Of a stretch of DNA of 64,000 bases, positions 5,201 through 46,634 are shown in pieces. The stretch's first letter is position 1. Each line of letters opens with the position of its first letter. Source of the stretch: Phoenix dactylifera (lineage: Eukaryota; Streptophyta; Magnoliopsida; Arecales; Arecaceae); the NCBI RefSeq assembly GCF_009389715.1, contig NC_052399.1:2744938-2808937 (forward strand), in the 5' to 3' direction. The notes below the pieces were generated by a model. The model was not told the DNA's origin. It searched no databases and saw only the letters and a list, made by a program, of their open reading frames with translations. The position numbers and the translations under genes were made by a program.

Positions 5201-8130
5201 ATGGGGAATGAGAAGGAGTTTGTTAGGAACATAGGTCGAATCGAACCCCGATCGCTTAGTTTCGGATTGCTCATTGGATGCTTTCTTGCCTTGATGATCT
5301 ACATGTCCATGTCCGATCGTTATGTAACTCCTCTACCGACCGGTAAGTCGCTTTCGACCAAACTGATAATCTCACTGTCTGTAGCCATGGATTCAGCAGC
5401 TGCTAGCTATGCGAGATTGGTGGATTTGCAAACCATATGAAACAAGCTGCATGAGAATTTAAATTTAGCATTGCGTTAAAATTCTTGTAGGTCCAGTTGG
5501 CTTTACAGTTGAGCCCCGAGCAGCGCCAGCTCGTGGAGTTCCTTCTAGTCCCATGGTGGAGCACAAGATGAATTCGCCGCAAGTAGGTAAGACCAGAATA
5601 TGACATGAAATTGGCAACTACTATTTATCGTTGCCTGAATTGATCCTCTGATTCGTATAGCTCTCGAAACTCGTTTAGTTAAAAGTGAGCATGACCATGA
5701 TGAGTCTTTTTGAGTTTGATCCTTCCACTAGATTATACAATCTTTGTTCATCTCTTAAGATCTATTGGGTTCTTTGATCGACAACATGACCGATCATATT
5801 GTAATCATTGAGAAGATGCAGGACCGCGAAATGCTGCAGAGGAGAATAAACTAAGCAGTGATGCTTCGCATCCAGGATCAGATCTCTTCGAGGAGAATGA
5901 TGCTATTAATGTGCGACGGAATTCATCATCTATGATTCATGATGCTTCCTCTGGAAGGCAAGATGCAATTAGCGCCCAGCAACTCGGTGAGCCAATGATT
6001 AGAGTTTTCATACTAATATCACAGGTTAAAACTTAAAAGATGTGCGAGTTGACTAGGCTCCATCAGCAAGTAATCCCAGCTGCAAATCAATAATTGAGCA
6101 CACAGTTTGGATTTCCAGTAGTTGGCATCGTACAACCCTAGCTGTTTTCCAGTAGCTCGCTTCAAAGGGAAACCTATTCTTCTATTTTTATTTTTCTTTT
6201 TTTCTTTTTTTCTTTTTTTTTTGGAGGGGGGGTCCACTTACACATAGATGTGAGTATGCCATGAGAAATTAAAAGACAAAACACGATTGAGGCTCTGTGG
6301 GATGGGGCCACTGCCATCTCATATATAGGCTCCAGAATGATGAGCTGCGGAGGAGATGACTCAGTCCACTGCACTGTTCGCCTCCCGAAAAACATGTGCG
6401 ACCCAAAAAGAATCAAGACTGCCCAGAAGATGACAGACATCCCTGACTAGTGGGTGTAGATCTGGCCTGGCACGTCCGCACCTGACCAAGAATATCCGCT
6501 GGGCCCCCAAGTATACACTAGAATATACGAGACCCTCCCACGCCGCGAGCAGCTCTGCCACTAGGATAGACTCATCGAAAATGCGTTGTTCCCTGCCGCA
6601 ATCAACCTGAGCTCCTGGTGTCTAATCACGAAACCTATTCTTCTTTGTTACAGGGAACGAAAACATCAGAGAGGATCAGCATGAAAAGGATGGCGGCAGC
6701 AGGGTCCCAGACAAAAATTCTTCTACTACTGGTGATTCAACTCAGAAAGAAAATATCATGAATCCCAAGCAACTAGGTATGTTGGTTTCCTTTCTACATT
6801 GAATCTCAGAGTCGCAACTGCTTAAACTGGCATTTATAAATATCCAATATGCTATTTCAGCGAAAATAGCTGAAGAAGCTGTCATAACACAACTTCTGGT
6901 TCCCACTGCCAGTGTCTAATGTGGGTTCTTCTCTCTCTTTGTGAAGGTGAAAGCAGTGAGGCTGTCAAGCCTCAAAGGAAGCCAATGTGCGATTTTTCTA
7001 GCGCAAGATCTGATATCTGTAGAATGGAAGGAGACGTCAGGATTCATGGGAAGTCCTCCTCCGTGGTGTTCGTTGCTTCCAATCAGATGGGCGATCCAGA
7101 ACCAAATGAGTCGTGGCGACTCAGGACTTACGCTCGTAAGTTCGACAAAACCATAATGGAGAAAATCAGGGTAGTGTCCGTTAAACTGTCGAGCAGTATC
7201 GATGCCCCTCGTTGCACCCTCCATCACAGCGTCCCCGCCATTGTATTCGCAGTTGGTGGGTACACTGGAAACGTATACCACGACTTCAATGACGCACTGA
7301 TTCCTCTCTTCATAACTTCGAGACAATTTAATGGAGAAGTCCAGTTGCTCATAACCAACACACAGCTCTGGTGGGTGCACAAGTACCGCCATATCCTGCA
7401 AAAGCTCACTCGATATGAGATTATCGATTTCGACAACGATGATCAAGTTCGCTGCTACCCCCATGCTATCGTCGGCCTCGAAAGCCATGAAGATATGGCC
7501 ATCGACCCCTCGAGAGCTCCAAATGGGTATTCCATGGTCGACTTCACAAAATTTGTGAGCAGCGCCTACTCCCTCGATCGAGACTCGCCCATCAAGATGG
7601 GATTACATCCCGAGAGGAAGCCAAGGCTTGCAATCATAGATAGACATCGAACTAGAAGGCTTACGAATGTCGAGGAAGTTGTTAAAATGGCAGAGGAGTT
7701 GGGCTACGAGGTGCTGAGAGCAGAGGCCAAGTTTGAGACTCAAGTTGCCGAGTTTGCACACATCATCAACTCGTGCGATGTGATGATGGGCGTGCATGGG
7801 GCCGGGCTCACAAATATGTTGTTCCTTCCAATGGGTGCAGTGTTTATCCAGGTAGTCCCCTGGGGTAGGTTGGAAAAGATAGCTAGGTATGACTATGGGG
7901 ACCCAGCCGGGAACATGAAGCTGCAGTACATGGAGTATAGCATCAGTGAAAAAGAGAGCACTCTTATAGATCTGTACCCTAGAGACCACCCTGTGTTCAA
8001 AGATCCCATGTCATTTCACAGGCGTGGATGGCTTGCTATGGGGAAAGTATACCTAGTTGAACAAAATGTGAAGCTTGATTTGAGAAGGTTTAGACCTGTT
8101 CTGCTGAAAGCCCTCGAGCTCCTCCATTAA
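5201..8130 (+). CDS. GT61 glycosyltransferase 1 (XAT/XYXT1-like)
   Basis: Probable Golgi type II membrane glycosyltransferase of family GT61 (DUF563), the family that adds arabinosyl or xylosyl side chains to xylan. Exons: 5201-5342, 5491-5586, 5822-5986, 6654-6776, 6947-8130; 569 residues, all introns phase 1. Residues about 20-37 form the membrane anchor (LLIGCFLALMIYMSM). Residues about 48-175 are a low-complexity stem. The last exon carries the cysteine entry motif MCDFSSARSDIC, GGYTGNVYHDFNDALIPLF, and DVMMGVHGAGLTN near residue 455. The start matches paralogue N-termini. Exon 2 has a second in-frame acceptor 18 bases downstream (exon from 5509, 563 residues). Stem exon 3 lacks the cysteine pair of its paralogues. 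Intron 3 contains a LINE fragment. The gene appears intact; donor and acceptor sugars are unknown. Confidence 0.9.
6169..6644 (-). mobile_element. 5'-truncated LINE (RNase H fragment) in GT61-1 intron 3
   Basis: The insert (6184-6629, 446 bp) is flanked by a perfect 15-bp target-site duplication, GAAACCTATTCTTCT, at 6169-6183 and 6630-6644. Its left end is a long T-rich run (6184-6222), the poly(A) tail of a minus-strand element. On that strand 6561-6361 encodes the end of a plant LINE RNase H domain: AELLAAWEGL, then HPLVRDVCHLLGSL and VAHVFREANSAVD. The RNase H part is open over about 66 codons, but the element is 5'-truncated and so dead on arrival. The right duplication copy lies just before the exon 4 splice acceptor (AG at 6652-6653). 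Confidence 0.9.
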
Positions 8131-8526
8131 CAATAGAATAAAGGCATCGGCTGTATCTTTAGTATTTTAATTATTGTCTCACTGTTTTGTTCGTTTTCAA
8201 GAAAGACAGAGTTTCTCTCTCTCTTTTTTTTATATATATACAATCCCTCTTTTTATAGGTTAATTGCAAATATAAATATCTTTATTTACATACTTACATA
8301 TTGATATCTTTTGTATATCATAAATTCCCCGACAAAACACAAGTTTAACTTTGTGTTAGTCATAATAAAAAATTGTCACATTAATTCCCATGCCTTCCCT
8401 CACCTGGTCTTTTGAAGCTTCTAGCTAGTGAACCACTTGTGTTTCTTGATGTGCTGCCCCCAATGTCCCTAGGGTTTAGATCTCAATTATAGCTAAAACA
8501 CCATAACGATGTTGTAATAGAGTCAA
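8131..8526. other. 3' flank of GT61-1
   Basis: AT-rich sequence after the stop codon with T-runs and a short TA run near 8232. It probably contains the 3' UTR and polyadenylation site. Nothing else is recognisable. Confidence 0.4.
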
Positions 8527-10004: not shown

Positions 10005-10026
10005 GAGAGAGAGAGAGAGAGAGAGA
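10005..10026. repeat. (GA)n microsatellite
   Basis: Eleven uninterrupted GA units. Confidence 0.95.
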
Positions 10027-11703: not shown

Positions 11704-12850
11704 ATGAAGTCTTCTAGGAACTTCAGCCGAGTCGAGCCCCAGAAGCTCGGTGTAGGACTGTTTGTTGGATGCTTTGTGGCCTTGATATTCTACATTTCCA
11801 TGTCTGATCCTGTTGTGATTCCTTTCCTTAATGGTAAGCGTCTCTCACTCTCTCTCTGTTTTCAACTTAATAATGTCAAAGTCTGAATCAATAAGTTGTA
11901 ATAATATAGAAGTCTTTAACTAGCTAAAACTTGTAAATCTTATTGGTTTTCCAGCTGATTCCCGGTTAACATCAATATATGGAGTTCATAAAACTCCAGT
12001 GGTGGAAGACAAGATGAGCTCTCGAGAATCAGGTAAGAAAAGCTTATGAGTTCCTTGGGAATCATTGTTTTTCATTGCTCGAATTGAACCTCCGGTTCGT
12101 ATAGGCCTTGAAATTTATGCAGATATAGCATAAATATATAACCAGAATGAGCTGTTGGTTTGATCATTAAGTTGGATGGGTTATGCTCTGGTTATGATTT
12201 AAGTAGTTAGATTTGTTGGGCTTTTAGTTTCCATATATGGCTTATCCTACAGCGATTATTGGGAGTATGCAGGACCGGGAAAAGCCAGACAGGAGCACAA
12301 GCCAAGCTGCAGTTCTTCAGACCCGAGATCAAATCTCTGCAACAAAAATGATGTAACGAGAACGCAATCGAACTCGTTACCTGCAAAAAGTGATCCTCCC
12401 TCTGGAAGACAAGATGCAAGGAATATTCAAAAACTAGGTGAGCCAAATGATTTGAACCTATAATTAGTTTAAAAGCTTTAAAGATTTGCTAGTTGGGTCT
12501 CCTTGGAGGATAGCCAGGTGATAAATTTAATCCATGTTCAGGACATCTGATTGGATTCGAAGTAGTTCATAGTATGCGATCTAGTTGGTTTTGTAAGTTT
12601 GAATGGATAGATCAAATTTTATATTAGACAGATAAATAAAAGGAGAAGCCTAATGTTCTGTTACAGGGAGCGAAAACAGGATAGAGGATCGACATGAAAA
12701 GCATGGTGATTATAAGGTCCCCGACAAAAATTCATCTCCTACAATTGGTGATCCAATGAAGAAAGAGGTCATCATCAACCCCAAGCAACTCGGTATGTTG
12801 ATAGTTATTGGATCCCAGCAACTCTTCTTTTTCGCATGCATATCTATCTA

Positions 12851-12893
<43 letters not shown>

Positions 12894-14218
12894 AGTACCA
12901 GTAGGCTGGTCATGCCAGGTAACTGAAAAAACTGTCAAATAACTCGATGAAACGCTGTATATGATTCAGCATCTTAGATGGTTAAGCCTTGTTCGGCATA
13001 TAATAACATGAGCTGCTTTCCTTGTGCCAAGGTGGAAGAAGAGAGAATGTGGAGCCTCAAAAGAAGCCGATTTGTGATTTTTCTGAACAGAGATCTGATG
13101 TCTGCGAAGCGAACGGTGATGTTAGAATCCATGGAAAGTCCTCCTCTGTGGTGTTTGTTACTTCGAACCAAAGAGACAATCCGGAATCAAATCAATCATG
13201 GCAGATTAAAGCTTATGCTCGCAAAGGAGACCGCAGCTTAATGGCAAATATCAAGGAGGTCTCCGTCAAATTATCGAACGGTCTTGAAGCTCCTCGGTGC
13301 ACGGTTTATCATAACGTACCTGGCATCGTGTTCTTCAATGGTGGCTACAACGGAAACTACTACCATGACTTCAATGACGTGCTGATTCCTCTGTTCATAA
13401 CTTCGAGACAATTTGATGGAGAAGTTCAACTCCTCATAAACCACATGCACCTTTGGTGGGTCAACAAGTATCGCCTGATTCTCAACAAGCTCTCGAGATA
13501 TGAAATTATAGATTTCGACAACGATGATCGAGTGCATTGCTACCCGCATGCGATCGTTGGCCTCCACAGCCACAAGGATTTGAGCATCGACCCCTCGAGA
13601 GCTCCAAATGGGTACTCCATGTCGGACTTCTCAGAATTCTTGAGGAGTGCTTATTCGCTCAAGAAAGATCTAGCAATAAAGGTGGCAGAGCTTCCGGAAA
13701 GGAAGCCTAGGCTGCTGGTCATATCAAGGGGATTGACTCGAAGATTCGCCAATCTGGAAGAGATCGTTCAGAAGGCCACAGAGTTGGGCTACGAGGTGGT
13801 GGTTGCAGAGGCCAGATTCGAGTCGAACGTCGCTCAGTTTTCGCAAATTGTGAACTCATGTGATGTGATGATGGGAGTGCATGGGGCTGGGCTCACCAAT
13901 CTCATTTTCCTTCCAACGAATGCGGTGTTGATCCAAATAGTCCCTTTTGGAGGGTTGGAAGCGATAGCTAAGATTGACTATGGGGACCCTTCCAAGGACA
14001 GGAAGCTGAAGTACTTGGAATACAGTATCAGTGAAGAGGAGAGCACTCTGATAGATCTGTATCCTAAGGACCACCCTGTGTTCAAGGACCCCATGTCAGT
14101 TCACAAGCTTGGATGGACAGCTATGGGGGAAATATACCTATATAAGCAAAATGTGAAGCTTGATATGGAGAGGTTTAAACCTGTTCTCTTGAAAGCCCTT
14201 GAGCTCCTCCATCAATAG
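11704..14218 (+). CDS. GT61 glycosyltransferase 2 (XAT/XYXT1-like)
   Basis: Closest visible relative of the first gene; about three quarters of catalytic residues match by eye. Exons: 11704-11833, 11955-12032, 12273-12437, 12667-12792, 13032-14218; 561 residues, all introns phase 1. Exon 1 encodes MKSSRNFSRVEPQKLG and an anchor at about residues 16-34. Exons 3 and 4 have the same or almost the same length as in gene 1 (165 and 126 against 165 and 123 bases). Stem exon 3 keeps a cysteine pair, SCSSSDPRSNLC. The catalytic exon has ICDFSEQRSDVC, GGYNGNYYHDFNDVLIPLF and DVMMGVHGAGLTN near residue 448. VPFGG replaces the usual VPWGG/R after the motif. Intron 4 has a long TA microsatellite. Predicted Golgi xylan pentosyltransferase; exact activity unknown. 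Confidence 0.9.
12839..12891. repeat. (TATC)n(TA)n microsatellite in GT61-2 intron 4
   Basis: A few TATC units followed by about twenty TA units, inside the intron just before the catalytic exon. Likely length-polymorphic. Confidence 0.95.
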
Positions 14219-15518: not shown

Positions 15519-18500
15519 TTCCCTCACTCATTTTAATATTAATACCAAAGTTTAGAGAAATTACTAGGCAAAGAGAGATCATTATGCATCATAAAGGTGT
15601 GCTCTCCATTGAACCTTCACTTAGTGAAACAACAATCTCTACTCCAGAGCTAGTAGTGATCTCAGACTTGAACTATGGCTACTTAAGGGATATAAAGAAT
15701 TACCGCTCATACATAATAATCTAGGTGTTGACATGAGCTTTAATAGCCAGCATGTTATGGCCATATGCTATCCCAGTTTCATGAGCATTTTTGAGAATAA
15801 GCCCAAGTCTCCTAGGAAGCGGCCCCACTTCCATGCTTACATAGGTGAAATCTGTCAAGGGTGCTCATGTAATACTGACACCCCACTCAAATGAGCTACA
15901 AATTTTCATTAAAAGTTTTGAAAAACTCAACCTCCACAACATTACAAGATAAATGCACCTACACCATAGGGATGAAAAAAGAATGTGCATTTCTTTCGAC
16001 TGCCATATGATTCGTTTTTTTCCATTGAACCTAGTTTTCAGGATCTCTGGTTTCCAGGTTGGGCATCCTCATATGTGGTTCTTGATTGTATAGGCTTCAG
16101 CCCCATCCCCCTCGACATATTCCAAACCCTTTCTCTTGACAATGCCTCAGTCAGTGGATCTGCAAGATTATCAAAAGATTTAATGTAATCCACATTAATT
16201 ATGCAGCTGCTCAGATAAGATCTCACAATACTGTATTTTCTCATGATAGGCCTGGATTTATCGTTATAATAACGGTTGTTCACTCTACCAATTGGGGCAG
16301 TACTATCACAATGAATTATCACAGATGGAACTAGTTTCTCCCAAAAAGGGATTTCATCTAACAAATCTCTCAACTAGTTTGCTTCCTCACTTGCTGAAGC
16401 TAAAGTTATAAGTTCAGCCTCCATGGTAGAGTTAGCAATAATAGTTTGTTTTTTAGATTTTCAGCATATAGCACCACCACCCAATGTAAAAATATAACTA
16501 CTAGTAGAGAGAGAATTATCTGATAATGTGTTCCAATTTTCATCACTAAAACCTTGAAGTAAAGCATGATACTTTTTACAAAACAACCCATAATTTTGGG
16601 TACCAGATAAATATTTCATAACTCGCTCAATGACATGCCAATGTTCTCTACCTGGCTTGCTAGTAAACCTACTAAGTACTCCCATTGTACATACAATGTC
16701 AGGTCTAGTACAATCAATCGCATAATGCAAGCTCCCAATAATACTAGCATACTCCTTTTGGTTAATCACATCAATCTCATTTTCCATAGGAAATAAATGA
16801 ATATTTGCATCAAAAGGAGTAGTAACATGCTTGCAATCAAAATAGTTATACTTTTTTCAAAATTCTTTCAATATAATGTGACTGATTAAGAAAAATTCCA
16901 TCAAAAGTTTTTGAAATTTTCATTCCCAAAATAAAATTAGCCTCACCAAAATCTTTCATTTGAAAATAGCTACTGAGCATATTTTTTGTTTCATTTATAA
17001 CATGCAAACTTGAGCCAAAAATTTATAAATCATCCACATAGAGGCTAACAATAACATGTGAATTTTCTCAAGATTTATAATATATGCACTTATCACATTA
17101 ATTTGGTTTATAGTCATTTCAATCATGCAGGAATCAATTTTTTTATGTCACTGCTTAGGAGCTTGTTTTAACCCATATAGGGATTTGTTGAGCTTACACA
17201 CTTTACTTTCTTGACTATGCTCTACAAAGCCTTTACGTTGATCCATGTAAATTTTCTCATCTAGTTTTATATTTTAAAAAGTTGTTTTTATATCCACTTG
17301 ATGAATACTCAATTATGAATTGCAGCCACTACAATTAATAAACTAATGGATGTATCTCTAGTAACCGGAGAAAATGTATCGAAAAAATCAAGATCAGCTT
17401 TTTGTTTAAAACCTTTTGCTACAAGCCTGACCTTGAATTTGTCAATAGAACCATCAGGTTTTAATTTTTTTTTGGAGGACCCATTTACAACCAATATTTA
17501 TACAACCCTGTGGTAATTCTACTAATTTCCAAGTTTGATTAGAAATTAGAGAATCCACCTCATTAGTAACAGCCTCTTTCCAAAACACAGCATCAGGTGA
17601 ATTTAAAGCTTCTTGTAAAGTCAAAGGAGTTTCCTCCATATTAAAAACATAATAGTCAGGGCCAAAATCTTTTTCAACTCTAACTCATTTACTCCTTCTC
17701 AGCTCAACTTCAAAATTTTCATAGTTTTGTGAAGAATTAGAAGAACTAGGCTCATATAAAATATTTTCTCTCAAATATTGACCCTGACTATTTTTAGTTT
17801 TGAAAGAAAATTTATCTTCCTGAAAATAGCATCACCTGACTCAAAAAGTACATTATTTTCAATATCCAAAAATTTATAGGCTGTACTGTTTGCTGCATAT
17901 CCAAGAAAAGCACAAGTGATAGCTCTAACACCAAGTTTTGGTCTTTTAGGTTCTGTTAACCTTACAAAAGCCAAACAGCCCCAGACCCTCAAATATCCTA
18001 AATTTGGCTTATACCCTTTCCACAACTCAAAAGGAGTGAGTTTGGTTTTCTTATGAGGCACCCTATTCATCACATAACACGCGGTCAAAATTGCTTGACC
18101 CTAAAGATTTAAGGGCGCATTTAAGTTAATCAACATGGCATTTGTCAAATTAATCAAAGTTCTATGTTTTCTCTCAGCTGCACCATTAGATGCAGGAGAG
18201 TATTGAGGAGTAGTTTCATGGATAATTTCCAAAGATTGCACAAAAGTGTTAAAATGCATAGATTCATACTCACAGCCTCTATCACTTCGAAATTTTTTAA
18301 TTTTTCGACCAAATTGATTTTCAACTTCTTGGACAAAATCTTTGAATTTTTCAAAAGCATCACCTTTATTTTTTAATAAGTAAACGTAAGTATATTTTAA
18401 AAAAATATCTATAAAGGTGATAAAATATCTATTTTCTTCATGGATTAAAATTTCTTCAAATTCACAAAAATCAGTATGAACCAGTTCTAACAATTCAGTT

Positions 18501-19353
18501 TTTCTTTCAACACTTTTATGAGGCCTCTCTGTGATATTTGCTTGACTACAAATTTCACATTTTTCAAAATCTTTTATCAATCTTGGAATTAATCCCAAAC
18601 TAATGATTCCCACGTATCTACTATTTATATGACATAAATGAGAATGCCAAAAATTTATAGAAGGAAGCATATAAACGGAACTAGATGATGCTTTATTACT
18701 CTTAATATTTAACTTCAACATACCATCACAAGCATATCCTTTGCCCATAAATATCCCATTTTTGTTAATTACATATTGATCAGATTTCATAGTTTGTTTG
18801 AAGCCAACCTTGTTGAGTAGAAAACTCAACATCAAATTCTTCCTCATGATGGAGCATGAAGTACATCTTTCAAGAGTAGCACACATCCAGAGGTGAATTT
18901 CAGCTCAAACTCACCACTTCCAAGGACTTTTGTTTGGCTAGAATCACCCAGCATAATGGTCCTCTCATCCTTGAAGGGAGTGTAGTTTTTGAACCAAGTC
19001 ATAGCAAACATGCATATTGGCACCAGAATCTGCCCACCACCCTTCAACACATTGAACCATGTAGATGTCTATAATCATTGCTACAAGAGATTCCTCGGCT
19101 ACATTAGCCTGAGGAAAAGGCCGATGTTTTCAAAATCTGCAAGTTCGAGCAATATGCCCACTTTTGCCACAAACAAAACATGCACCAAAAGAATGGTTTT
19201 GTGAAGGGGGTATTTGGTTCCTATTTTTCTGACTCGGGTTTCTCCTACTATGCGGTTTGCCATAAAATTTCATATTTTTTCTCTTTGGCTTCAAATGACT
19301 ATTTTTAGGAAAATAATCATTAGGCAGAGCATTATTTGAAGCAATTAAATTTA

Positions 19354-19455
<102 letters not shown>

Positions 19456-20037
19456 CTACTTGTACTTGTGGCATATAGTTTTTTGAAATTCTCTCCATGA
19501 TGGTGGTAGCTTGTCAATAATACCAGCCACAATCAGGTTATCCCCAAGCTTGATGCCTTCAAATCTAACCTCTCCAACGATCATTTGAAAATCTTGTGCT
19601 TGCTCAGCAATGGATTTTCCATCCACCATTTGAAAGCAAAAAAATCGACTTGCTACATATTTCTTTACGCTAGGTTCTTCAGTATCATACTTGCTCAGTA
19701 AAGCTTTCCAAATACTCTTTGCAGAAGAGTAAGTAGGATTGTAATAATCATAGAAATTATCGGCAAGAGAATTTTGTAATACCCATCTCTAGTATATTTG
19801 TCCACTTTCTTTTGACGAGCTTGATACTCTTCATCTGTCATCTCATCGGTTGACATCTTGGTTGGATTTTTCTCGGTGAGAATGTAGGAAACGTTGAGAA
19901 GACTCAAATAGAATAGCACCTTGCTTTTCCATCTCTTGAAGTGGGCTCTCTTGAAACAGAAGGGCTCGTTAAGATCTCCAGCATTACCATTGTGCTTCTC
20001 AGGGATTAGCTCCATTTCCATTGAATCTTCTTAAAAT

Positions 20038-22572: not shown

Positions 22573-22574
<2 letters not shown>

Positions 22575-24141: not shown

Positions 24142-26916
24142 ATGGGGTACGAGGCAAAGCTGGTTAGGAGCTTCAGCCGCTTCGAACCACAGAAGCTCGG
24201 ACTTGGATTGCTCGCCGCGTGTTTTCTGGTCTCGTTAACCTACATTTCGGTGACCAATAACTTTGCAGTCCATTTTCCCATCTGTGAGTTTCTCATTCTA
24301 CAACTCTTTGCTTTTTTGCTCTTTTTTCTTTTCATTTTTTTTATCTCTGTTCTTGCAAAAGATCCTCATTTATCTGCATCTTACAAGATGTGGTATTGTC
24401 AGATCTTTAGTTCTTATCGCTCGAACCTCTTTTGCAGTAAATTCCCGGCAATCATCATCGAAGCATGCAGCGGAAACCGGCCCTCTGGTCGAAACTGCAA
24501 TGACTTCTCCACAGTTAGGTAAGATAAAAGCAAATATCTCTTTTTTTTCTTTTAATTTAAGAAAAAAAAATTGCAGTTAAGCATGCTTAAACGAAAGTAG
24601 TATTAGGATGCATGATCTCATAGGAAGTCTTCGTGGTGGAAATATTTCTAAATATGGAGAGGAAGAGTAAAGAATAGGCAAAAGCAGCTGAGCTTTTAGA
24701 CTTGGCAATGAGGACTCTGCTCCCAAAGTGTTGAATCAATAGAGGGCACAATTGGTCTTTTGAAAAATATCGATAACAATAAAATAAAAAAGAATATTGA
24801 AAATTTACTTGTCTGAGTTAAACTAATGAGATGTATATATGTATGTCCTCAATTTGGGTGATCATTGTTTTCCTCTCAATCAATAATTGAACTAGTGAAA
24901 TGTATGTCTCTTAATTTGGGTGATCATTTTCTTCCTCTCAATCTTTAGAGGCGGGGCTCGAAAATGCGACGCATGAGAGCCGGCCAAGCTGCGACGATGC
25001 CAACCCAAGATCAGGTCTTTGTGGAAAGAATGATCTTACCGAGATGCACCAGAATTCTTCCTCCACGGCTTCTGATGTTCCCCCTGCGAAAGAAGATCTT
25101 TCAAACAGCACTAAACAACTAGGCGAGTAAAACCACTCTTCTTCTTTTTGCTTTTATCTGCTACCGTTTTTCTTTTCGAACCATGGAAAATTTTGCAAAG
25201 GTCAAGTCATTTGAGCTAAAATTATTGTTCGTGGTGAACCACCCGGCTCGGGTTGATTAGCTGATGCAACAAGTCTTGCTTGTAGTAACTAAGATCAATT
25301 GCGATCGACCTTGTTGATTATTACAGGTGGTGAAAAGGTGACATGGGGAAAAAGCTTACCATGCGACCCAAAATCAGGTCACTGTGAAACGGATAGTGAT
25401 GGTAGGACCCAGAAGAACATGACCACCATGGTTGATTCATTGCCTGGACCAGTTACCACCAGTTCCATCAAAAAAGGTATGTTTTTATGTCCTTCAAGTA
25501 CAATTAATCGAGAACCATGATCCAAATTATTGCTGTAAAGAAAGAGGGAGGGGAAATATTAAAAAAGAAAGAAAGAAAGAAAAAAAGGCTGAGGAACTCA
25601 GTGAGTCAGCCGACTCGACTCACTGAGTGAGACGCTCATGGCGAGTTTAGTATCCAAGGAGTATAGACTGTCGATCTTTAAGATGACTTCCTTGTCTGAT
25701 CTATTGTAGACTTCTTCTCCTGCTTGTAGATGAACGGATTGAGGATTTGGAGGCTGAGAGGAAGCCGATGTGCGACACGTCGGCCCGGAGATCCGACGTC
25801 TGCGAAATGGACGGTGATGTGAGGATTTTGGGGAAGAATTCCTCGGTGATATACGTGACACCCTCTAGAATTGGTGCATGGGGAAGAAATGAGTCATGGA
25901 AGATCAGACCTTATTGTCGCAAGACAGACAAGGCGGCCATGGCTGAAGTTCGGGAGGTATCCGTGAAATCATTGGGAAATTACGAAGCAGCCCCTCGCTG
26001 CACTGTTAATCACACAGTTCCTGCCATCGTCTTCTCAATTGCAGGATACACTGGAAACTACTTCCATGCCTTCACCGACGTGGTCGTCCCACTCTTCCTG
26101 ACTTCCTACCAATACAATGGAGAAGTACAGCTTGTTGTGACCAATTTCAAAGTTTGGTGGATTTACAAGTACCTTCCGATACTAAAGAAGCTCTCTCGCT
26201 ATGAAATCATTGATTTCGACAACGATGAGAGAGTGCATTGCTGTAAACATGCGATCGTCGGTCTGAAAGCCCACAACGACTTGAGCATCGACCCCTCGAA
26301 AGCTCCGAACGGATATTCCATGGTCGACTTCACAAGGTTTATGAGGAGCGCGTACTCGCTGGAGAGGAGTTCCCCGATGAGGATCGGTGAACATCCCGGT
26401 AAGAAGCCAAGGCTGCTGATCATAGCAAGAAGTCGAACGAGAAAGTTCATGAATCTAGACAAGATAATTCGGATGGCAGAGAAGTTGGGCTTTGAGGTGG
26501 TGGTCTCGGAGGCCGACAACAATGTGACTCGGTTTGCGCATGTTGTGAACTCATGTGACGTGATGATGGGGGTTCATGGTGCCGGGCTCACCAACCTAGT
26601 CTTCCTTCCGACGAACGCAATCCTGATCCAGATAATCCCTTGGGGTAGGCTGGATTGGATAGCTAATACTTACTTCAAGTATCCGTCCAAGGAGATGAAA
26701 CTGAGGTACTTGGATTACAATATAACTGAAGAGGAGAGCACGCTTATAGATCAGTACCCTAGAGACCACGCTGTCTTCAAGGACCCCTCGTCAATTCACA
26801 AGCTTGGATGGAATGGTATGATGGAAATATACCTAGTGAAGCAAAATGTAAAGCTCAATATCAGGAGGTTTAGGCCTGTTCTGATAAAAGCCCTTAAGCT
26901 TCTACATCAACGATAG
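24142..26916 (+). CDS. GT61 glycosyltransferase 3 (XAT/XYXT1-like)
   Basis: Exons: 24142-24283, 24438-24518, 24959-25132, 25327-25476, 25730-26916; 577 residues, all introns phase 1. The signal anchor is at about residues 19-37 (LGLLAACFLVSLTYISV). The stem carries two cysteine pairs, SCDDANPRSGLC in exon 3 and CDPKSGHC in exon 4, the most in the cluster together with the catalytic entry pair MCDTSARRSDVC. The catalytic exon has GYTGNYFHAFTDVVVPLF, where HAF replaces the HDF of its paralogues, and DVMMGVHGAGLTN near residue 463. The exon 3 donor is GC (CTAG then GCGAGT) instead of GT; the reading frame supports it. Predicted Golgi type II enzyme acting on xylan. The HAF change could alter activity, but I cannot say how. 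Confidence 0.88.
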
Positions 26917-30105: not shown

Positions 30106-33070
30106 ATGGCAAACAAGTTCAAGCTGGTTAGGAACTCGAACCGAGAGTCCCAAAGGTTCAGAATAGTAGTTTTTGTAATCGGATGCTTCCTCGTCTCGAT
30201 GACCTTCATTGTGGTGTCTCAACCTCAATCCATCCCTTTTCCCATCTGTAAGTTTTTCAACCTCGGCCATGAATGGCTTTATGAATTTGATGAACGCAGC
30301 TTTATATCATCGGCTGCTTTTGATATGGATTTGGTTGAATTCCATGATTAAATTCTTGTGTTTGAGCACTTACTTGATGCTGAACAACATTGCAGTGGGT
30401 TCAAAACCAAGTGTTCATGTGGCTCCAAGCACCCCCAAGGCCGAAGATACAGGGCATTCTCAACGACTGGGTAAGACGCTTGCACAACTAGTTCTTCTGA
30501 TGATATGTTTGGCATCGAATTGTTGGGGTTTGATGATTAAATAATGTTTAAGATTTACCAAAGATTGGGAATCGATGATGTCTTTCTTCAGGTGAAATTT
30601 CAGGACAAGACAATGCAACAGAGCACAGCAAGCAGGAAATGGGTAAGGCAATCCATTTAGATACTTTTTTTTTCATTCAAAAAAAAAATTATTAATATGT
30701 AACTTAAAAGATTGCCTAAGTCTGACTAAGCTTGTTTGCCAGAGCTGTGTCTTTTAAATTGAAATTTTCAATGTAGAAATAGATTAACAGAGGAGAGTTA
30801 TGTGGCTTCCCTGGTGAATTTTAAATGGCTCTAGGGAGGCTTTGAGGGGTTTTTTTTTTTTTATGAAGGGAGGTTTTGTGTGATGAATCCTCATGTTGAA
30901 CTCCCATTAAATTTTTTTTTTTTTTTCATGTTTCAGAGAGCAATAATGAGATTCAGGAGAAAATAATAGAAGGTGATGACTTAAGAGCCCATCAAGATGA
31001 AGTGGGTGGTGAAATTAATTCAGCTCAGAAGGAAACTCTGAGAACTACAGATAAACTAGGTATGCCTTTTGCAGCTCACATTAGATTGTTGTTGAATTCA
31101 ATAGGTCTAGCTTGGCTCACAGTCCTCAAACCAGAGATGATAAGTTTTTAAACCATGATAGCGAACCTTGTCCTCCTCCATGTTACAGAGAGCAATAACA
31201 GCATGCAGGAGATAAGCACGAAAAGTGACGAGTCCAACTCCCATGGAGGTGAATTGCACAGAAAATTTACACTCCCAACAATTTCAAACTACACCATCAA
31301 TGATTCACTTCAAGTAGAAAATGCTAGCAATGCCGAGCAATTAGGTACATCGATCGCTATTGACATTGGACTAGACAAGTTGAAGGCGATGTGGTTTTTA
31401 TTTGTTATAGCTCACCTTTTCCTTGATGTCACAGGGAAAGAAAATGAGACCACCACATGTGATCCCAATTCTGGTGAATGTGATAAGGATGGGGAAGCAG
31501 GACCCCAGGGGGACCCCAATCCTGCCATTGCCGATCCAACTCAGGAACAAAACACTAGCAATTCCAAGCAATTAGGTACATTGGCCATCATTAAGATTTG
31601 TTGGCTTTCAAATCAAGATAACTAGCACCATCGTAAAATGGAGGAAACTACTAGGCTCTCCAAGTTTTTTTTTTTTTTTGCCCCTCTCTTTCTCCTTAAA
31701 ATAGAAGCCAAAAAGAAAACAATTTGGAGGGGTAACAGAACCAACTCGTAGCATTTAATACATTGGTCAGAAACATGTAAATTTAGCACAAAATAGAACA
31801 AGTCATTACTTTACATTGGTTTGAGGAGCTCCATTTCTGCATCAAGATGAAAGCATTACTTATCATGACTAATTTTTTGTTTTTGGCTTAATGTGAAGGA
31901 GTGGGGGGTCAGAATATGATGAATTCAGAGAAGAAGCCATTATGTGATTTTTCTCACTACCGAGTAGACCGATGCGAATTGGAAGGCGACATCAGAATTC
32001 ATAGGAACCCTTCCTCTGTTATATCCGTGGAATCCACGGAGAGAAGCAGTGAATCATACCGCATTCGGCCGTACCCTCGCAAGGGAGACAAGATTGCTCT
32101 TAGCCGTGTCACAGAAGTGATGGTAAAATCGAGCAAAGACGGTCCTCAATGCAGCATAAACCACAACGTCCCTGCCCTAGTGTTTTCGGTTGGTGGGTAC
32201 ACAGGAAACCTCTTCCATGACTTCACTGATGTAATGATCCCCATCTTCTTAACCGCCAGCGAATTCAATGGGGAGGTTCAGTTTGTCATAACCGAGACCA
32301 GGCCTTGGTGGATGAAGAAGTATCTAACTGTGTTTCAGAAGCTCTCTCGGTACGAAATCATCGACTTCGACAACGATGACAGAGTTCATTGCTTCAAGCA
32401 TGTGGCTGTGGGTCTTCGAGCCCAAATGGAGTTCACCATCGACCCCGCACAAGATCCTAATGGCTATACCATGGTCGACTTCGCTCGATTCATGAGAAGC
32501 GTCTACTCATTGGAGCGAGACGCCGTGACCAGGATCGAAGAGCACCCCCACAGGAAGCCAAGACTTACGATCATATCGAGGCAGCGAACCCGAAAATTCA
32601 CAAATGTTCCTGAGATAGTTCGAATGGCACAGGATCTGGGCTACGAAGTGGTGGTTGAAGAGGCTGGTGTGAGCACCAACGTAGCTCAGTTTGCAAGAAA
32701 CATTAATTCTTGCGATGTGCTCATGGGAGTGCATGGGGCTGGTCTCACCAATCTGGTGTTCCTCCCAATGAATGCAACCATAATCCAGATAGTACCATGG
32801 GGTGGGCTGGAAGGGATAGCCATGTTCGACTTCGGACATGGAGCCAAGGCCATGAAGCTGAACTATGTGCAGTATAGCATCAGCGTAGAAGAGAGCACCC
32901 TGACAGAGATATATCCAAGAAACCATCCTGTGTTCAAGAACCCCACATCGTTTCACAAACAGGGGTGGGTTCTTCTAAGGGGAACATTCATGGACAAACA
33001 GAATGTGAAGTTGGATGTCAACAGGTTCAGGGATGTTTTGTGGAAGGCCCTCGAGCACATGATGCAGTAG
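30106..33070 (+). CDS. GT61 glycosyltransferase 4, long-stem form
   Basis: The longest member: exons 30106-30247, 30396-30470, 30592-30642, 30937-31059, 31189-31344, 31435-31575, 31899-33070; 619 residues, all introns phase 1. Anchor at about residues 19-39 (VVFVIGCFLVSMTFIVVS). Five stem exons give a lumenal stem of about 180 residues. Exons 4 and 5 begin almost identically (ESNNEIQE and ESNNSMQE), and exons 5 and 6 end alike (SNAEQLG and SNSKQLG), so exons were probably duplicated. Exon 6 has the cysteine pair TCDPNSGEC. The catalytic exon has LCDFSHYRVDRC, GGYTGNLFHDFTDVMIPIF and GVHGAGLTN near residue 506; the motif before it reads DVLM instead of DVMM. Closest relative in the cluster is GT61-5. 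Predicted Golgi xylan pentosyltransferase; substrate unknown. Confidence 0.88.
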
Positions 33071-39440: not shown

Positions 39441-41333
39441 ATGGCAAACAAGATGAAGTCCACAAGGAGCTCCGGCAGAGTCGAGTCCCGAAGTTTCAGA
39501 CTAGCAGTGTTCATCATCGGATGCTTGGTGCTCTCCACTTTTGTTGTCGTCTCTAAACCTCAAATAGATCCTTTTCTCACTAGTAAGTTTCTCTTCAGCA
39601 TTGGTCCTGCATTGGGTTACTTTCAATTGCTTAATTGCTCTGTTTGAGCGTGCTGCTAATGCTGAAAGGTATTGCAGGGAGTTCAGAGCCATTAAAGCCC
39701 ATAGGTCGGAATAATCTTGGAGCCAAAGGTACAGCAGATTCTCCAAAATTGGGTAGGCCACTCAATCCTGTACTTGTTCATATGGTTTTTGTGTTTAATG
39801 TTGCAATCTTGAGGTTTGATTTCATTATGTACTCTCATAAGAAAAATCAAATGAATCTAACAGAAAATTTCAAGCACTTTCGAGCAATCTAAAGAGGTCG
39901 TGCATACATATATCAACCATTATTCCTAGTAACAATGATAATAATGATAACAAAATGCCAATGGTGGTGATGATAGTGGTAAAGGTGGCGGATGGCAACA
40001 ACTGTAAACATAATGATCCTAATGATGATGATGAAATAACCAGAACATTTAGGTTCTAAAGAGCGAAAATGGATGGTGATGCTAGGCTCCCCAAAGCTTT
40101 TTTTCGAGTAATTACTTCCCATGTCTTGTTTTTTTTTAAAAAAAAAAAATTTGGTTCGCTTCATGTGAAGGTATGAAGGGAGAGAATATGAATCGAGGGA
40201 AGCCATTGTGCCATGTTTCAGAACGACGAGGAGACCTGTGCATAATGGATGGCGACATTAGAATTCATCAGAACACTTCCTCCATTATACTCGTGGAACC
40301 CAGTGGAAGAAATGAATTATGGCGAGTTAGACCTTACCCACGCAAGGGAGCCGACAATGACTTCAACCAAATTAGAGAACTGACGGTTAAATCGAGCAAA
40401 GAGGCAATACAATGCACCATAAACCACAGCATCCCTGCTATAGTCTTTTCAGTCAGTGGATACACAGGAAACCTCTTCCATGATTTCACCGATCTTTTGG
40501 TTCCCCTCTTCTTAACTGCTCGCCAATTCAATGGAGAAGTCCAATTCATCGTGACCGACGTGAAGCATTGGTGGATCGACAAGTACCTGCCCGTGTTTCG
40601 AGGGCTCTCCAAATACCAACTCATCGAATTTGGCAGGGACGATCAGGTTCATTGTTTCAAGCACATGATCGTGGGTCTCCGACGCCACAAGGAGCTAAGC
40701 ATCGACCCCACGAAGGCTCCTCATGGGTATTCTATGGTCCATTTCACTCAATTTATGAGAAGCACCTACGAGTTGGGGAGAGACACCGTAGCTAGAATTG
40801 AAGAATACCCCCATAAGAAGCCAAGGCTGCTCATCATATCAAGGAAGCAGTCACGGGCGATCACAAATGTTAAGAGGATAGCTCAAATGGCAGAGGAATT
40901 GGGCTATGAGGTGGTTGCTGCCGAGGCCAATTCACTGTCTAATATTACTCGTTTTGCCCAAATAGTTAACTCCTGCGACGTGATGATGGGAGTGCATGGA
41001 GCTGGGCTCACCAATATGGTGTTCCTCCCACCGCAAGCGACGGTGATCCAAATAGTACCGTGGGGCAGGCTGGAAACAATAGCTAGGAAGGACTTTGGGG
41101 ACCCAGCCAAGGACATGAAGCTAAACTACTTGCAATATAGTATTAGTGCACAGGAGAGCACTCTGATGAAGCTGTATCCTAGAAACCACCCTGTGTTCAA
41201 GAACCCCTCCTCATTCCACAACCGTGGGTGGGATCTGGTGAAGACTACGTTCATGGAGAAGCAGAACGTGAAGCTTGATTTGAGCAGGTTCAGGGATGTT
41301 CTGTGGAAAGCCCTCGAGAATCTCATGCAGTAG
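39441..41333 (+). CDS. GT61 glycosyltransferase 5, short-stem form
   Basis: Exons: 39441-39582, 39678-39752, 40171-41333; 459 residues, both introns phase 1. The start at MANKMKSTRSS matches the MANK start of GT61-4; an in-frame ATG at 39357 would add 28 residues with no counterpart. Anchor at about residues 22-42 (LAVFIIGCLVLSTFVVVS). Only one stem exon remains (ending SPKLG), so the stem is about 40 residues and has no extra cysteine pair. The catalytic exon has LCHVSERRGDLC, SGYTGNLFHDFTDLLVPLF and DVMMGVHGAGLTN near residue 347. I found no further exon in the 418-base second intron. Closest to GT61-4, perhaps 60-65% in the catalytic part by eye. Predicted Golgi type II enzyme. Confidence 0.9.
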
Positions 41334-44300
41334 AAGAGTGCATGGTGGCATTAACCTCTTGGAGAACCCCTTTTCCATGTTTGAATTCATTCTTTGTGGT
41401 CAAGAATGTCGTGTGCTTAAATAGTGTCGCAAGAGAGAGAAGGCTATGGTGCAATAAATTACAAAGTGGTGGACTAAATGTGAATCTCGAACTAAGTACG
41501 CCACTATATATGTATACCCTTTTTCTTCTTACAAAATTTTATGTTTGAGAGGTTTTTTTTTCTTTTTTCTTTTGTGTTTTTGGAAAAAGAGATGGAAACA
41601 TTTTTGTCTTAAATTGAAACAAATAATAAATCCAGTGGCATGGTTATTTCTTGGTTAGATTGTACATCTTTTTTTATTGATTCTTTTTCCATCAAGAACA
41701 AATGAGCTGTCGGCTTAGCTGTCTTGGAAACATGATTGAAAGCATCCGGAATTTGACCCACCAAGGAGATGGCCGCTACCATTCCTTGATTAGCTGGCCA
41801 TTGACAAAGATTGATTGACCAAGCCAATAATTGTAAGCAATCCATCTCCATTCACATGAAGTTTAAACCTTCCCGAGCTACGAGATTTAACCTGATAAAA
41901 AATCCTGAAACAGAGCATTGATGAACGAAACAGAGCAAAGGATATAAATTTGATAATACTTAAAAGCTTGCTTACGAAAGGTGCAAATTTACGGCTAGCT
42001 TTCAACTCTTAAGCGGCCTAGAAAATACAAAAAGGTGTTAAGCCCGTATCCCTCTCCGAAAGAAAGGGTCCAAAGCTGAAAAAATAAACCATTAAAGGGC
42101 TCCTCGCATGTTTATATTGTTATTCTGGATTTCATAATACACCACTTTTCTTAATGAACACACTTCCTTTGAAGTCTCCCTTGGGAAATTAGCTAATAGC
42201 CAGGCAAGCACAAGAAAAGTCAATTCATTGGTGATAGATTTCATTCAGCACAATGACACGACTCACCAATAAATATCAATTACACTGGTGATCTTTAGCT
42301 GGAAACCAAATGTAAACATGATGGTTGTACTTTTTTACACTTTAAAGGCCCGGCTCTACGGAGGAAAAAAACAAGGGAAAAATAAAACAAAGAGAAGTCT
42401 GGGAAGCCTTGGCCGCCCAGCGTGGGACTAGACAGGTTGTTGGCTTGGCCATCTCCAAAAGTGTTTGATGGAATAGCCAAGTTAGAGTCCACAAAATTAG
42501 GCCGGTCTTTATTTGAATTCTTTTTTTTATTTCGTGGCCTCATGGCAGATTCACCCATGCAGAGCGGTGTTATTTGGCGTCGCCTCGCCGGTTGCCGTCA
42601 ACTTTTTGGGATCCACCCCCCGTACCGTGTAATAATGACAAATAGAAGGATTGATCCCCGGGTGGGGAAGGCATGTCATTTCCAGAAGCCGTTAGGTAGC
42701 AGGACAATTATTGGTAGCTCCAGCCGCTGGAGTTTTAACCACCGTGTGTCGTTTGGCTTTTGATTTCCTGGAGAAGAAGAATATAGGATAAGTCACGAAG
42801 CATATACATACATACATACATACCTATATGGAATCTTGTGAACATCTTTAAACAATAAGAATCTTAGAAGTAATATATTGGGGTGTAAATGTGCTGGGCT
42901 TTTGACCACGAGATCAAAAGGCCCAAAAGGCATCTTTCCATTAGCTGGATGCAAAATTGAAGAGCACAGCTGTTAAATTCTTTCTCATCTTGCATTATTC
43001 TGCATCCTCTGGCTGTGATGTTGGAAGGGCAAATCAACTTTGGACACTAGAATGGTGTGCGTCGCAATCAATAATTTATTTTCTAAAAGCATGAAAAAAA
43101 TCATTTATTTATCTCTAATTTGAAAAATATGAAATTTACTATTTTTAGCTAAAAAAATTAGTTGAGAGCAACAATTGTTACATCAGTTGGTTGGCACGTC
43201 TTGTCCAAGAGCTTACGCCATAAGAGAGAGAGAGAATTGGATCAGAATATTGCAATTAATGGTGCTTTGTTGTATGCTCAAAATAGCTTATTGGTAATGC
43301 TTAATGTCCTTTTTCGACCCTCTGGATGACAGAACTAGATCATTATGATCCATTCTTGGAGTCAAAAAAAGTTAACATATTTTCATGGGCAATCTTTGGT
43401 TAGTCCAAGCAAAACCACCGACAATCACCTAGTAGAAGTGATGTAAGCTCCCTACCTGAGGTAACCGATAAACATTCCATGCAAGTGGTTGCATTCTAGA
43501 TCGTGCTTTATGGCATAAGCTTATTGAAAACTTGGTTACCTAATAGTCTAAAGTGAACCATGAGGTTGTTGGTTCATGTGGAACCATGATGTGGTTTTTT
43601 CTACCAATCAAGGACTAGAGCTTGTGTTTTGTACAAATGTCAAGTATGCAAGATGTCCAGTTACATGTTTTCCTCAAAATTGGTTCTGCAATTCTTTTGG
43701 CTCCTTTGAACATGAAGTGCCGTAGCTGAACTCCCCTCCGGCTTCAGTCAGCTTGTTAATTGTTGCCACTCCTCTCCTTCGGGTTGATGTCTCCATTTAG
43801 AACCCTAATGAGCCCGTTCCCGCTATGTATACATATGTATATAAGAAAAGGTTAAATTTGTCATTCAACTTTGTTTCTAAAGTGACATATCATGATATGT
43901 AGTCTTATCTCCGGCCTTGGTATGTTAATCAAAACTTGTAATTCTTCACATATCTGCCGTTCGTGTATAATTCAGATCATATTGAAGTCAGTTAAGCACG
44001 AGTTAAGCATATTGAAATCAACTTTGAAATATGCTTGAGCATCACTTCCCTCAAAATTATATGCTTGAGCATCAAATCTCAATTCCTCTTTGTAGTTATG
44101 CGCGAACTATTGTAAGTTAATGCTCCTGGACCATCCTTTGTTTATGTCCACCAATACACCAACTGAAAAGGATGCCAAATATATCCCCTTTATTAAAGGC
44201 AGATTCTCTTTTTACTAGTTTGGTAGGTTCATATCATCCCATTATTAATAACCTTCATGGTGGAAAGTGATGAAAAATTGTGAATTAGATTGTTAGTCAT

Positions 44301-44702
44301 ATTGTTTGCTCAAATTAGATTTAAATTATATTGTCTCAACTGCATAAAATGTATTAGTCCCCATATTCCACATTCATGGACACAAATATGTATCTTTTCC
44401 ATTAGTCTGAGAGGAATAAAACAGGGCAGTGATGGAAGCAGAAGAAATTTTGCTTGATGGCTATCTACACCATTGAAAGTTGATTGAACCTCGAAATCAC
44501 TTCTTTTGCCATATTTTTTTAACTAATAATGTATAAAAGTAAAATTAACATCTTCTGATGCTTTGCACCATACACTCATATCGATCATCTTACAAGAAAA
44601 TACAAAATCATTACAATATTGAAGAACCCAAAAAAAAGAGAAGAAAAAAAAGAGAAATGAATGGGGATCGAGGAGATCATCTAGTTCCAACAGTCAAAAG
44701 AC
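41334..44702. other. Spacer between convergent GT61-5 and GT61-6
   Basis: This 3.4-kb stretch separates the 3' ends of two convergent genes. Minus-strand frames at 42005-41609 read in two registers (for example LVNQSLSMA and QGMVAAISLVGQIPDAF) and look somewhat protein-like, but I do not recognise them. A frame at 42422-42763 is also unknown. A CATA microsatellite lies near 42803-42822. The rest is AT-rich. Confidence 0.4.
42803..42822. repeat. (CATA)n microsatellite
   Basis: Five near-perfect four-base units. Confidence 0.85.
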
Positions 44703-46634
44703 TTAGCTGGTGACATTGTGAGGTAGGTGCTTGAGAGCTTCCATCAGAGTGTTCCTAAGCCTGCCCAAGTGAGGCCTCACATTTTGATTGTCCAAGTACA
44801 CAGACTTGAGCGTATTCCACCCCTGTTTGTGGATTTTGTAGGGGTTCGTCAGCACAGGATGGTCCTTGGGGTATTGCTCGCTGAGAGTGCTCTCATCCGC
44901 TTGGATTTTGTACTCGAAGTAGTTGAGCTCTAATTCCTTTGCGGGATCCTGGAAGGTTTCTCTGGCGAGCCATTCCAGGCCGCCCATGGGCACAACCTGA
45001 ATGATCACAGCCCCTGCAGGGAGGAAAACCATGTTGGTGAGCCCGGCGCCATGGACTCCGATCATCACATCGGCCGAGTTCACTAGCCTCGCAAACTTGG
45101 CTACTTCGGTGCTAATATCAGGCTGGCCGATCCTCACGTCGAACCCCAAGCTCATTGCCATGTCCGCCATCCCCCTCTCGTTCAAGAATTTTCTTGTCTT
45201 CTGGCGAGACAGGATCAACAGCCTTGGCCGCCTCCTTATGTCCCATTCATCCTCCGGAGGCGCCGCGGTTGCTCGTTCCAGTCCGAGTGCCTCTCTCAGC
45301 ATCGCTTTGAAATCGACAATGGAGTATCCAGTAGGAGTCCTCGAAGCATCGACGCCTAGTACCTTGTGGAAGCTCGGCCCCATGATCACCCGAGGGAAGC
45401 ACCGCACCGTACTCTCTTGCTCGCTCTCCACGTCGATGATCTCGTAGTTGGAGAGCTGCTTGAAGATCAAGCTGAATTTGCTCACCCACCACGATTTGAA
45501 GTCGGAGATCAAGAAGTGGACCTCGCCATGGAACTGATAGGAGCTTATGAAGAGCGGGACTAACACATCGATGAAGTCGTGGAAGAGGTTGCCGGCATAG
45601 CCTCCCACAGAGAAGATCATGGCAGGGACTGTATGGTTTGTGGTGCATTCGGGAGGCAGATGATGGCTGTTTGATGCTTTCAATGACCATTCTTTTACAT
45701 TGGCAATGGCTACGGCATCATTCTTGCGAGCATAAGGCTTGATCTTCCTTTCTTGCCTCCTCGACATAGGTTGGACAAACACAGTGCGAGAGCTTCCATG
45801 CACCCTTATATCGCCCTCCGCATCGCAAGTATCGGATCTCTTGCTTGTCTCGTAGCATATCGGTTTCCCCATGTCGACCGCGGTGCCGTTTCCTTCATCA
45901 TCTTCATCCTCTGCAAATCAAAATTAGCAGTACAACCTTTAGGACAAAGAGGCCTCATCCATTTCTCGATGGTTGTCTGAATTATTGAAAAGGTCTCTTA
46001 ACTTTGACGAACCTTTCGCTGGATGTTATAATTCAATGATTTTGTGAATAATTCATAGATTATTTACTCCTCACCAAAAAAAAAAAAAAAATTCATAGAT
46101 TAATTACTCACACCCTTCTTTTTGACAAATATTAGATTGTCTACGTAATATCCTTGACTAAAAGAACAACTAACAGCAGCTAATTGTTGAAATTTAGATT
46201 GCTGTCAACTGTCAGTATTTATTGTCATCTCTGCCATTCTTTCTCTTGCGCTAGCGCTTATATCATTGCATTCTCTAAGTACATCTGGAATGGAAGCTAC
46301 CTTGCAGATCCGTGACCATCAAAAGATTTGTTGCTGTTGGTACCATTAATTTCGAGGGTGCCTGTGATTTCCCTGCAAGAGCAATAGTTCTAGTTATATA
46401 AAAGATCTCAAGAAGAACTAGAAAGAATTCCCTCAAAAGAACTAGAGACAGAGACGGACCATATGGATACGAGCAATAGCGAAGCTTGATGAGAGAGAGG
46501 ATGGAAAGGGAAAGGATCATGGATGCTATGATGAAGGCATTCCCTATCCTCCAGGGCTCTGGCCTGCCAAAACTCCTTGAAGTCTTCATCTCTCTTCCTC
46601 CTTGTTTCTCTTTTCCTCCCGACTCCCTCCTCAT
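44703..46634 (-). CDS. GT61 glycosyltransferase 6, inverted and divergent
   Basis: Minus-strand exons: 46634-46460 (or 46589-46460), 46372-46301, 45910-44703; 484 residues from the first ATG or 469 from the second, both introns phase 1. The second ATG (MKTSRSFGRPEPW) aligns with the GT61-2 start, and a TATA box sits only about 25-30 bases before the first ATG, so the second is more likely. Anchor: FIIASMILSLSILSLI. One stem exon of 24 codons. The last exon begins with an acidic run (EDEDDEGN), then ICYETSKRSDTC, GGYAGNLFHDFIDVLVPLF and NSADVMIGVHGAGLTN, where SAD replaces the SCD of the other five. It is GC-richer and less similar than the tandem five, so it probably belongs to an older branch. 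Predicted Golgi type II glycosyltransferase. Confidence 0.9.

Follow-up and report, generated by a model that had tools for sequence, protein, structure and literature searches.

What supplies new sequence to the stem of a Golgi glycosyltransferase? Such stems vary widely in length, and the origin of new stem sequence is seldom traceable. The question is raised by a tandem cluster of six GT61 genes in a window of 64,000 nucleotides (the whole stretch analysed here) from the date palm, Phoenix dactylifera (assembly GCF_009389715.1, contig NC_052399.1, positions 2,744,938 to 2,808,937 of the forward strand), in which the number of stem exons is 3, 3, 3, 5, 1 and 1 from gene g1 to gene g6. The reading that we favour, at a probability of roughly 0.6, is that a hybrid stem exon arose through a tandem duplication inside a gene, between E2 (the exon directly after the membrane exon E1) and the catalytic exon, and that this hybrid was then multiplied and, in g5, lost.

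Gene structure and classes of stem exons

The six gene models, none with an internal stop, are predicted, their exon borders having been picked by reading the DNA. All six genes matched Pfam PF04577 above its curated cut-off (48.1–57 bits against 27), with the spliced protein of g3 and the catalytic exon of the other five as input, and are classified by this match as members of the GT61 glycosyltransferase family. Each gene consists of E1, which encodes a short tail and a hydrophobic stretch (recognized by eye in six of six and a candidate membrane anchor of the Golgi type II layout), followed by stem exons and a single catalytic exon. All 22 introns are in phase 1, 21 of them GT-AG and one GC-AG; the sole non-GT donor follows g3 E3, after 25122 (CTAG/GCGAGT, the part after the slash at 25123–25128). 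The six genes are paralogues, so these are not 22 independent events. The 16 stem exons are all symmetric, with a length that is a multiple of three and phase 1 at both ends. The first-pass annotation had put every intron in phase 1 and had counted the stem exons as above; the rebuilt models agree on both, coordinates included.

Every gene has a single E2. The remaining stem exons number 2, 2, 2, 4, 0 and 0 from g1 to g6 and fall into an E3 class (g1–g3), an E4 type (E4 of g1–g3; E4, E5 and E6 of g4) and g4 E3, which is unplaced; all of them but g4 E3 are called modules here. The features are as follows.

5201–8130, + strand: g1, model rebuilt from the DNA
5201–5342, +: g1 E1, putative membrane anchor with a cytoplasmic tail (by eye)
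5491–5586, +: g1 E2, constant stem exon
5822–5986, +: g1 E3, module, catalytic-head-like then E2-tail-like, without a Cys pair
6654–6776, +: g1 E4, E4-type module
6947–8130, +: g1 catalytic exon; head 6976–7068 against the E3 profile, E 0.073
11704–14218, +: g2, model rebuilt from the DNA
11704–11833, +: g2 E1
11955–12032, +: g2 E2, constant stem exon
12273–12437, +: g2 E3, module with CX9C
12667–12792, +: g2 E4, E4-type module
13032–14218, +: g2 catalytic exon; head 13049–13165, top non-self match of the E3 profile, E 3.6e-4
24142–26916, +: g3, model rebuilt from the DNA
24142–24283, +: g3 E1
24438–24518, +: g3 E2, constant stem exon
24949–25122, +: g3 E3, module with CX9C (Cys at 15 and 25, the positions found in the g1–g3 catalytic exons) and a GC donor
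25327–25476, +: g3 E4, E4-type module with CX6C
25730–26916, +: g3 catalytic exon; head 25753–25848 against the E3 profile, E 0.0075
30106–33070, +: g4, model rebuilt from the DNA
30106–30247, +: g4 E1
30396–30470, +: g4 E2, constant stem exon
30592–30642, +: g4 E3, symmetric stem exon of 17 codons, class unplaced
30937–31059, +: g4 E4, E4-type module, 5' part in common with E5
31189–31344, +: g4 E5, E4-type module, resembling E4 in its 5' part and E6 in its 3' part
31435–31575, +: g4 E6, E4-type module with CX6C
31899–33070, +: g4 catalytic exon; head 31922–32032 against the E3 profile, E 0.0012
39441–41333, +: g5, model rebuilt from the DNA
39441–39582, +: g5 E1
39678–39752, +: g5 E2, sole stem exon
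40067–40094, +: g5 intron 2, 28 bp with likeness to mid-module sequence of the E4 type, possible remnant
40171–41333, +: g5 catalytic exon; head 40200–40319 against the E3 profile, E 9e-4
44703–46634, − strand: g6, model rebuilt from the DNA
44703–45910, −: g6 catalytic exon; head 45753–45887 against the E3 profile weak, E 3.6
46301–46372, −: g6 E2, sole stem exon
46460–46634, −: g6 E1

The E4 type is held together by reciprocal matches: a DNA profile of E4 from g1–g3 found g4 E6 (E 5.5e-16), g4 E5 (1.1e-6) and, weakly, g4 E4 (4.9), while a profile of g4 E4–E6 found E4 of g1, g2 and g3 (7.1e-14, 2.7e-8 and 6.8e-7). A separate observation concerns g4 E3 (30592–30642), which is perhaps a truncated E3 (p 0.023 against g3 E3, pairwise and uncorrected). 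The ratio of nonsynonymous to synonymous substitution (dN/dS) in the pooled stem is 0.51 for g1/g2 and 0.32 for g1/g3, against 0.22–0.23 in the catalytic exon; for the g2/g3 stem it is not computable, dS being saturated. Point estimates for E2 alone are 0.60–0.81 where computable, which is not clearly below 1.

Two likenesses within one module

The 5' part of E3 resembles the head of the catalytic exon. Compared by hhalign, the E3 and catalytic profiles match with Prob 92.7 and E 4.3e-7; their score of 46.2 stands against a null maximum of 18.6, and none of 300 column-shuffled profiles did as well. Among 216 peptide pairs, a set from which catalytic-catalytic pairs were left out, 18 pass Bonferroni correction, and 10 of these join E3 to the catalytic head (there are 18 such pairs). 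The best local match lies at residues 4–56 of about 390 in all 18 E3-catalytic pairs and, for E4 of g1–g3, inside catalytic residues 1–55 in 17 of 18; it falls within residue 60 in 4/6 pairs for g4 E6, 2/6 for g4 E4, 1/6 for g4 E5, 0/6 for g4 E3 and 7/36 for E2. When a hidden Markov model (HMM) of E3 was run over the 3385 six-frame pieces of the window, its top five non-self matches were the heads of g2, g5, g4, g3 and g1 (E 3.6e-4 to 0.073), with the g6 head far lower (E 3.6). An HMM of the heads returned g3 E3, g2 E3 and g1 E3 as its top three non-self matches (E 2.9e-4 to 0.015); a fourth, at 63503–63544 on the minus strand (E 0.021), has stop-broken frames and no tblastn match with the six proteins, and was taken as chance. 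At the DNA level, the E3 profile reached the heads of g2 (E 7.6e-7), g1 (9.9e-6), g5 (0.0023), g3 (0.06) and g4 (0.36), with the tails of g2 E4 and g1 E4 interspersed among them (E 0.019 and 0.11).

This homology is in register with the acceptor and covers columns ~8–40. The best ungapped diagonal scores 39.3, the next 13.0 and the highest of 1000 null scores 22.3, while the first eight columns and those from column 41 on score about zero or below. Cys residues stand at positions 15 and 25 in g3 E3 and in the catalytic exons of g1–g3, and at 13 and 23 in g2 E3. Judged by its sequence, module E3 of g1–g3 is a diverged copy of the catalytic exon head, from which the 5' part of the modules probably derives. 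The first-pass annotation had cast the catalytic exon as a bystander while the stems changed, and that part of it is not borne out. A tree of E3 and the heads over 34 columns sets the three E3 apart from the six heads (approximate likelihood-ratio test/ultrafast bootstrap (UFBoot) 96.5/98), in line with a copy that may predate the split of the genes; an alternative tree grouping E3 with the g1–g3 heads gave p 0.007 in the approximately unbiased test and 0.09 in the Kishino-Hasegawa and Shimodaira-Hasegawa tests.

The E4-type modules are linked to E3, with tails alike beyond chance, and more weakly to the head. A four-member E4 profile scored 20.5 against the head (null maximum 18.6, 0/200 shuffles as good, E 0.01), g1 E4 with g2 E4 scored 22.3 (null maximum 22.0, 0/200), and g3 E4 with g4 E6 scored 17.2, which one of 200 shuffles equalled.

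The 3' part of the modules resembles a different exon. Their last ~37 nt (~12 codons), donor included, are like the E2 end of the same length. In a comparison of six blocks between E2 and all nine modules, the likeness is found in −19..−2 (p 0.0035), −37..−20 (p 0.021) and −37..−17 (p 0.0040). A scan of codon offsets 0–14 between E2 and module tails peaks at 0 (12.8; next 3.5). Taken gene by gene, with codons shuffled and the last four bases excluded, the E2 tails gave p 0.016 in g1, 0.012 in g2, 0.001 in g3, 0.009 in g4 and 0.08 in both g5 and g6; codon shuffles were preferred over a null of 6011 GT sites, which ignores coding composition. The two parental likenesses meet at one junction, with head columns 9–40 on one side and the last ~37 nt of E2 on the other, the E2 part being the weaker. 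A 14-nt identity between g2 E2 and g2 E3 was put down to chance, being out of frame.

The first-pass annotation had described nearly all stem exons as ending in QLG, KLG or RLG and several as beginning alike. The ending is present in 11 of 16, the exceptions being g1 E2, g2 E2, g3 E4, g4 E3 and g6 E2; in g3 E2 and g4 E4, both among the 11, the next exon turns the split codon into one for E, giving L-E after splicing. The plant donor consensus has A or C at position −3. Donor-consensus bias was rejected as the source of the ending, since base −3 is T in 13 of the 16. As to the beginnings, the g4 modules start like E4 of g1–g3 (p 0.018 and 0.0025), whereas E3 and E4 starts are not significantly alike (p 0.30 and 0.11). 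Nor are the module starts significantly like the first 29–41 nt of the catalytic exon (E3 p 0.07 and 0.14; others 0.59–0.85).

Origin, gain and loss of the modules

An ancestral gene would have consisted of E1 (membrane anchor), E2 (a short stem exon) and the catalytic exon, the structure that g6 has. A tandem duplication inside such a gene, running from a point ~12 codons short of the E2 end to one ~40–45 codons into the catalytic exon, would have inserted a hybrid exon with the catalytic head and its acceptor at the 5' side and the E2 tail and its donor at the 3' side. Because both parental introns are in phase 1, the new exon would be symmetric at birth and only its internal junction would need to keep the frame; as a hybrid of E2 and the catalytic exon, it would find its splice sites and phase ready-made. 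The copy would then have drifted to a polar spacer, some copies keeping the head-like Cys pair and an N-glycosylation motif, and modules would have multiplied to E3 and E4 in g1–g3 and to E4–E6 in g4, and been deleted in g5.

Multiplication has left near copies in g4: E4 and E5 agree in their 5' parts (p 7.9e-7), E5 and E6 in their 3' parts (p 2.6e-6), and the matches extend into the introns by ~10 nt on the acceptor side and 6 nt on the donor side. A 30-bp match of 100% between g4 E5 and E6 was dropped because both flanks overlap one 90-bp intron, and poly-A/T matches between introns were ignored. In the tree of catalytic exons, g4 and g5 form a pair (UFBoot 90). In monocot GT61 orthogroup A, Cenci et al. 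(2018) described tandem collinear loci with the consensus A1 > / A2–A5 < / A6 >, and an A1 clade that is apparently basal, a question they left open (PMC6297846). The window, with five genes on the plus strand and then one on the minus strand, corresponds when read backwards to the palm order A4, A4, A3, A2, A2, A1 of their Table 2 (PMC6297846), an assignment by order and orientation and not by sequence. Gene order and orientation alone thus suggest that g6 is A1. On the premise that g6, as A1, is the outgroup, the E4 type would have been present before g5 split off, and g5 would have lost it.

Intron 2 of g5 holds a possible remnant at 40067–40094, where 28 bp match the middle of the E4-type module with 9.6 bits (E 0.013 over the whole window; shuffle maximum 5.3 in 1000; 0/440 overlapping non-genic windows as high). 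We conclude that the modules were probably lost in g5, whereas g6 may never have had any. As a separate observation, g4 intron 6 (31576–31898) and g5 intron 2 (39753–40170) have in common a 39-bp stretch of 77% identity at differing distances from the donor (p 0.00019, E 0.015), which indicates related intron sequence; g4 intron 6 has no module match of its own.

Several results weigh against an origin by duplication followed by gain and loss. The first ~8–13 module codons have no significant likeness to the catalytic exon, and identity between E3 and the heads is just 21–38% over 34 columns. The likeness of the E4 type to the head is modest: a g4 E4 with g4 E5 profile gave no signal against it (10/200 shuffles as good), and the CX6C pairs of this type align with the Cys of the head only via a gap. 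On the E2 side, block −16..−5 gave p 0.083, the signal leaning partly on the L codon, and the tails in g5 and g6 are weak (p 0.04–0.08). The g5 remnant spans 28 bp only and is weak with two other E4 profiles (E 0.48 and 7.7), and g6 intron 2 has nothing like a module beyond poly-T (0 bits). The 17 codons of g4 E3 found no placing match in pairwise or HMM comparisons and fit nowhere in the scheme. The evidence base, finally, is six paralogues inside the window.

The rival that survives best, although unlikely, reverses the direction: the catalytic head would itself be the final module of the stem, joined to the catalytic part when one intron was lost. E3-head homology is compatible with either direction, but a fusion would be expected to leave a module tail near catalytic residues 45–60, and a module-tail matrix slid along the catalytic exons had no standout there. 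Codon 57 of g2 was third best and codon 63 of g3 fourth best, both with negative scores; the four top windows of each remaining gene all lay outside 45–63, and a second scan placed none of its best six near 45–60. The head is also conserved throughout the cluster, even in g5 and g6, which have no modules.

We regard as distinctly unlikely that all stem exons, E2 included, are copies of one ancestral stem module with the catalytic exon uninvolved, as the first-pass annotation had proposed. E2 and module tails are indeed alike, and 11 of the 16 stem exons have the (Q/K/R)LG ending, yet the match of E3 to the catalytic head is in register and much stronger than chance would give, and E2 upstream of its tail resembles neither modules (−55..−38, p 0.52; −70..−56, p 0.15) nor the catalytic exon (whole-exon profile, 122/200 shuffles as good). 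A six-member E2 profile run against the window had no match at E<0.5 beyond its own six, found by construction. What stands of the proposal is that most stem exons form one family, multiplied in frame and probably lost in g5; E2, which shares just its last ~12 codons with the modules, and the unplaced g4 E3 fall outside it.

Quite improbable is a module donor drawn from a cryptic GT inside the copied head, with E2 not contributing: one profile comparison does align E3 up to head residue 54 in a single run, but the ungapped likeness ends after column 41 and the likeness to the E2 tail covers the rest. Convergence of polar linkers rich in Ser, Asp and Asn, together with splice-site bias, might be suggested by hydrophilic stems and short alignments but is barely credible, since composition-keeping shuffles reject it, the CTAG end differs from the donor consensus, and E3 and the head have Cys spacing and place in common. 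The duplication between E2 and the catalytic exon remains our preferred account.

Stem properties, known systems and meaning

The stems of g1–g6 are 128, 123, 135, 182, 25 and 24 residues long, with 2, 1, 4, 7, 0 and 0 glycosylation motifs, and V, I, L, M, F and W make up 14–17% of them in g1–g5 and 33% in g6. Their eight Cys residues always come two per exon, as CX9C in g2 E3 and g3 E3, the same spacing as in the catalytic head, and as CX6C in g3 E4 and g4 E6. The stem most likely serves as an extended tether that would be glycosylated in part and may contain small disulphide loops, and it is plausible that the number of stem exons alters the distance of the catalytic domain from the Golgi membrane. 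Against the PDB, the catalytic profile matched 8 distinct sequences at E up to 0.001, all of them EOGT or POMGNT2 (entries 9wjk, 6xi2, 6xfi, 8kb7 and 7e9j); the best matched stretches start at profile position 103–104, leaving the head and stem without a matched counterpart. An AlphaFold2 prediction of the catalytic exon from the six sequences was unusable (predicted local distance difference test score 33.8), and no structural claim is drawn from it.

Remains of a retrotransposon, read here as Copia-like, lie between g2 and g3 (16461–19513, minus strand). Separate open pieces match an integrase core, a GAG-pre-integrase and a CCHC zinc knuckle; the piece at 16461–16856 has no Pfam match.

Exon shuffling is known to use class 1-1 modules (Patthy). 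The stem exons here are also phase 1-1, but their sources would lie within the same gene and no independent fold is shown. In-frame multiplication of a unit within a gene is shared with internal tandem domain repeats, in the part of that work available (PMC1553488), although here the unit would be a hybrid of catalytic head and exon tail in a polar linker and not a known folded repeat. Intragenic duplication likewise alters exon-intron structure in the accessible passages on intron gain by tandem genomic duplication (PMC4974935, PMC2809761); those cases concern intron gain, whereas a duplication spanning an existing intron would here create an exon. In the GT61-A study, exons are mentioned once, in the methods, the trees rest on 253–311 aligned positions after block selection, and the passages available have nothing on stem exons, phases or modules (PMC6297846). 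The passages available of PMC10952531, PMC11062476, PMC9941839 and PMC3342304 contain none on GT61 stem exons and, among the literature matches listed, no title or abstract opening describes GT61 stem exon modules, supplements and most subscription papers being outside reach.

At this locus the source of new stem sequence would be readable, namely the gene's own catalytic exon and a neighbouring exon, with splice sites and frame inherited. More tentatively, and at somewhat less than even odds, the catalytic exon would have supplied material for the stem of the same enzyme: a copy of the head, fused to the E2 tail, would have given glycosylatable spacers with Cys loops, and gains and losses dating back to before the commelinid radiation would have tuned their number (0, 2 or 3–4) between neighbouring genes. 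If this is true in other monocots, module number would be a countable character, open to comparison with the part that each gene plays in xylan decoration.

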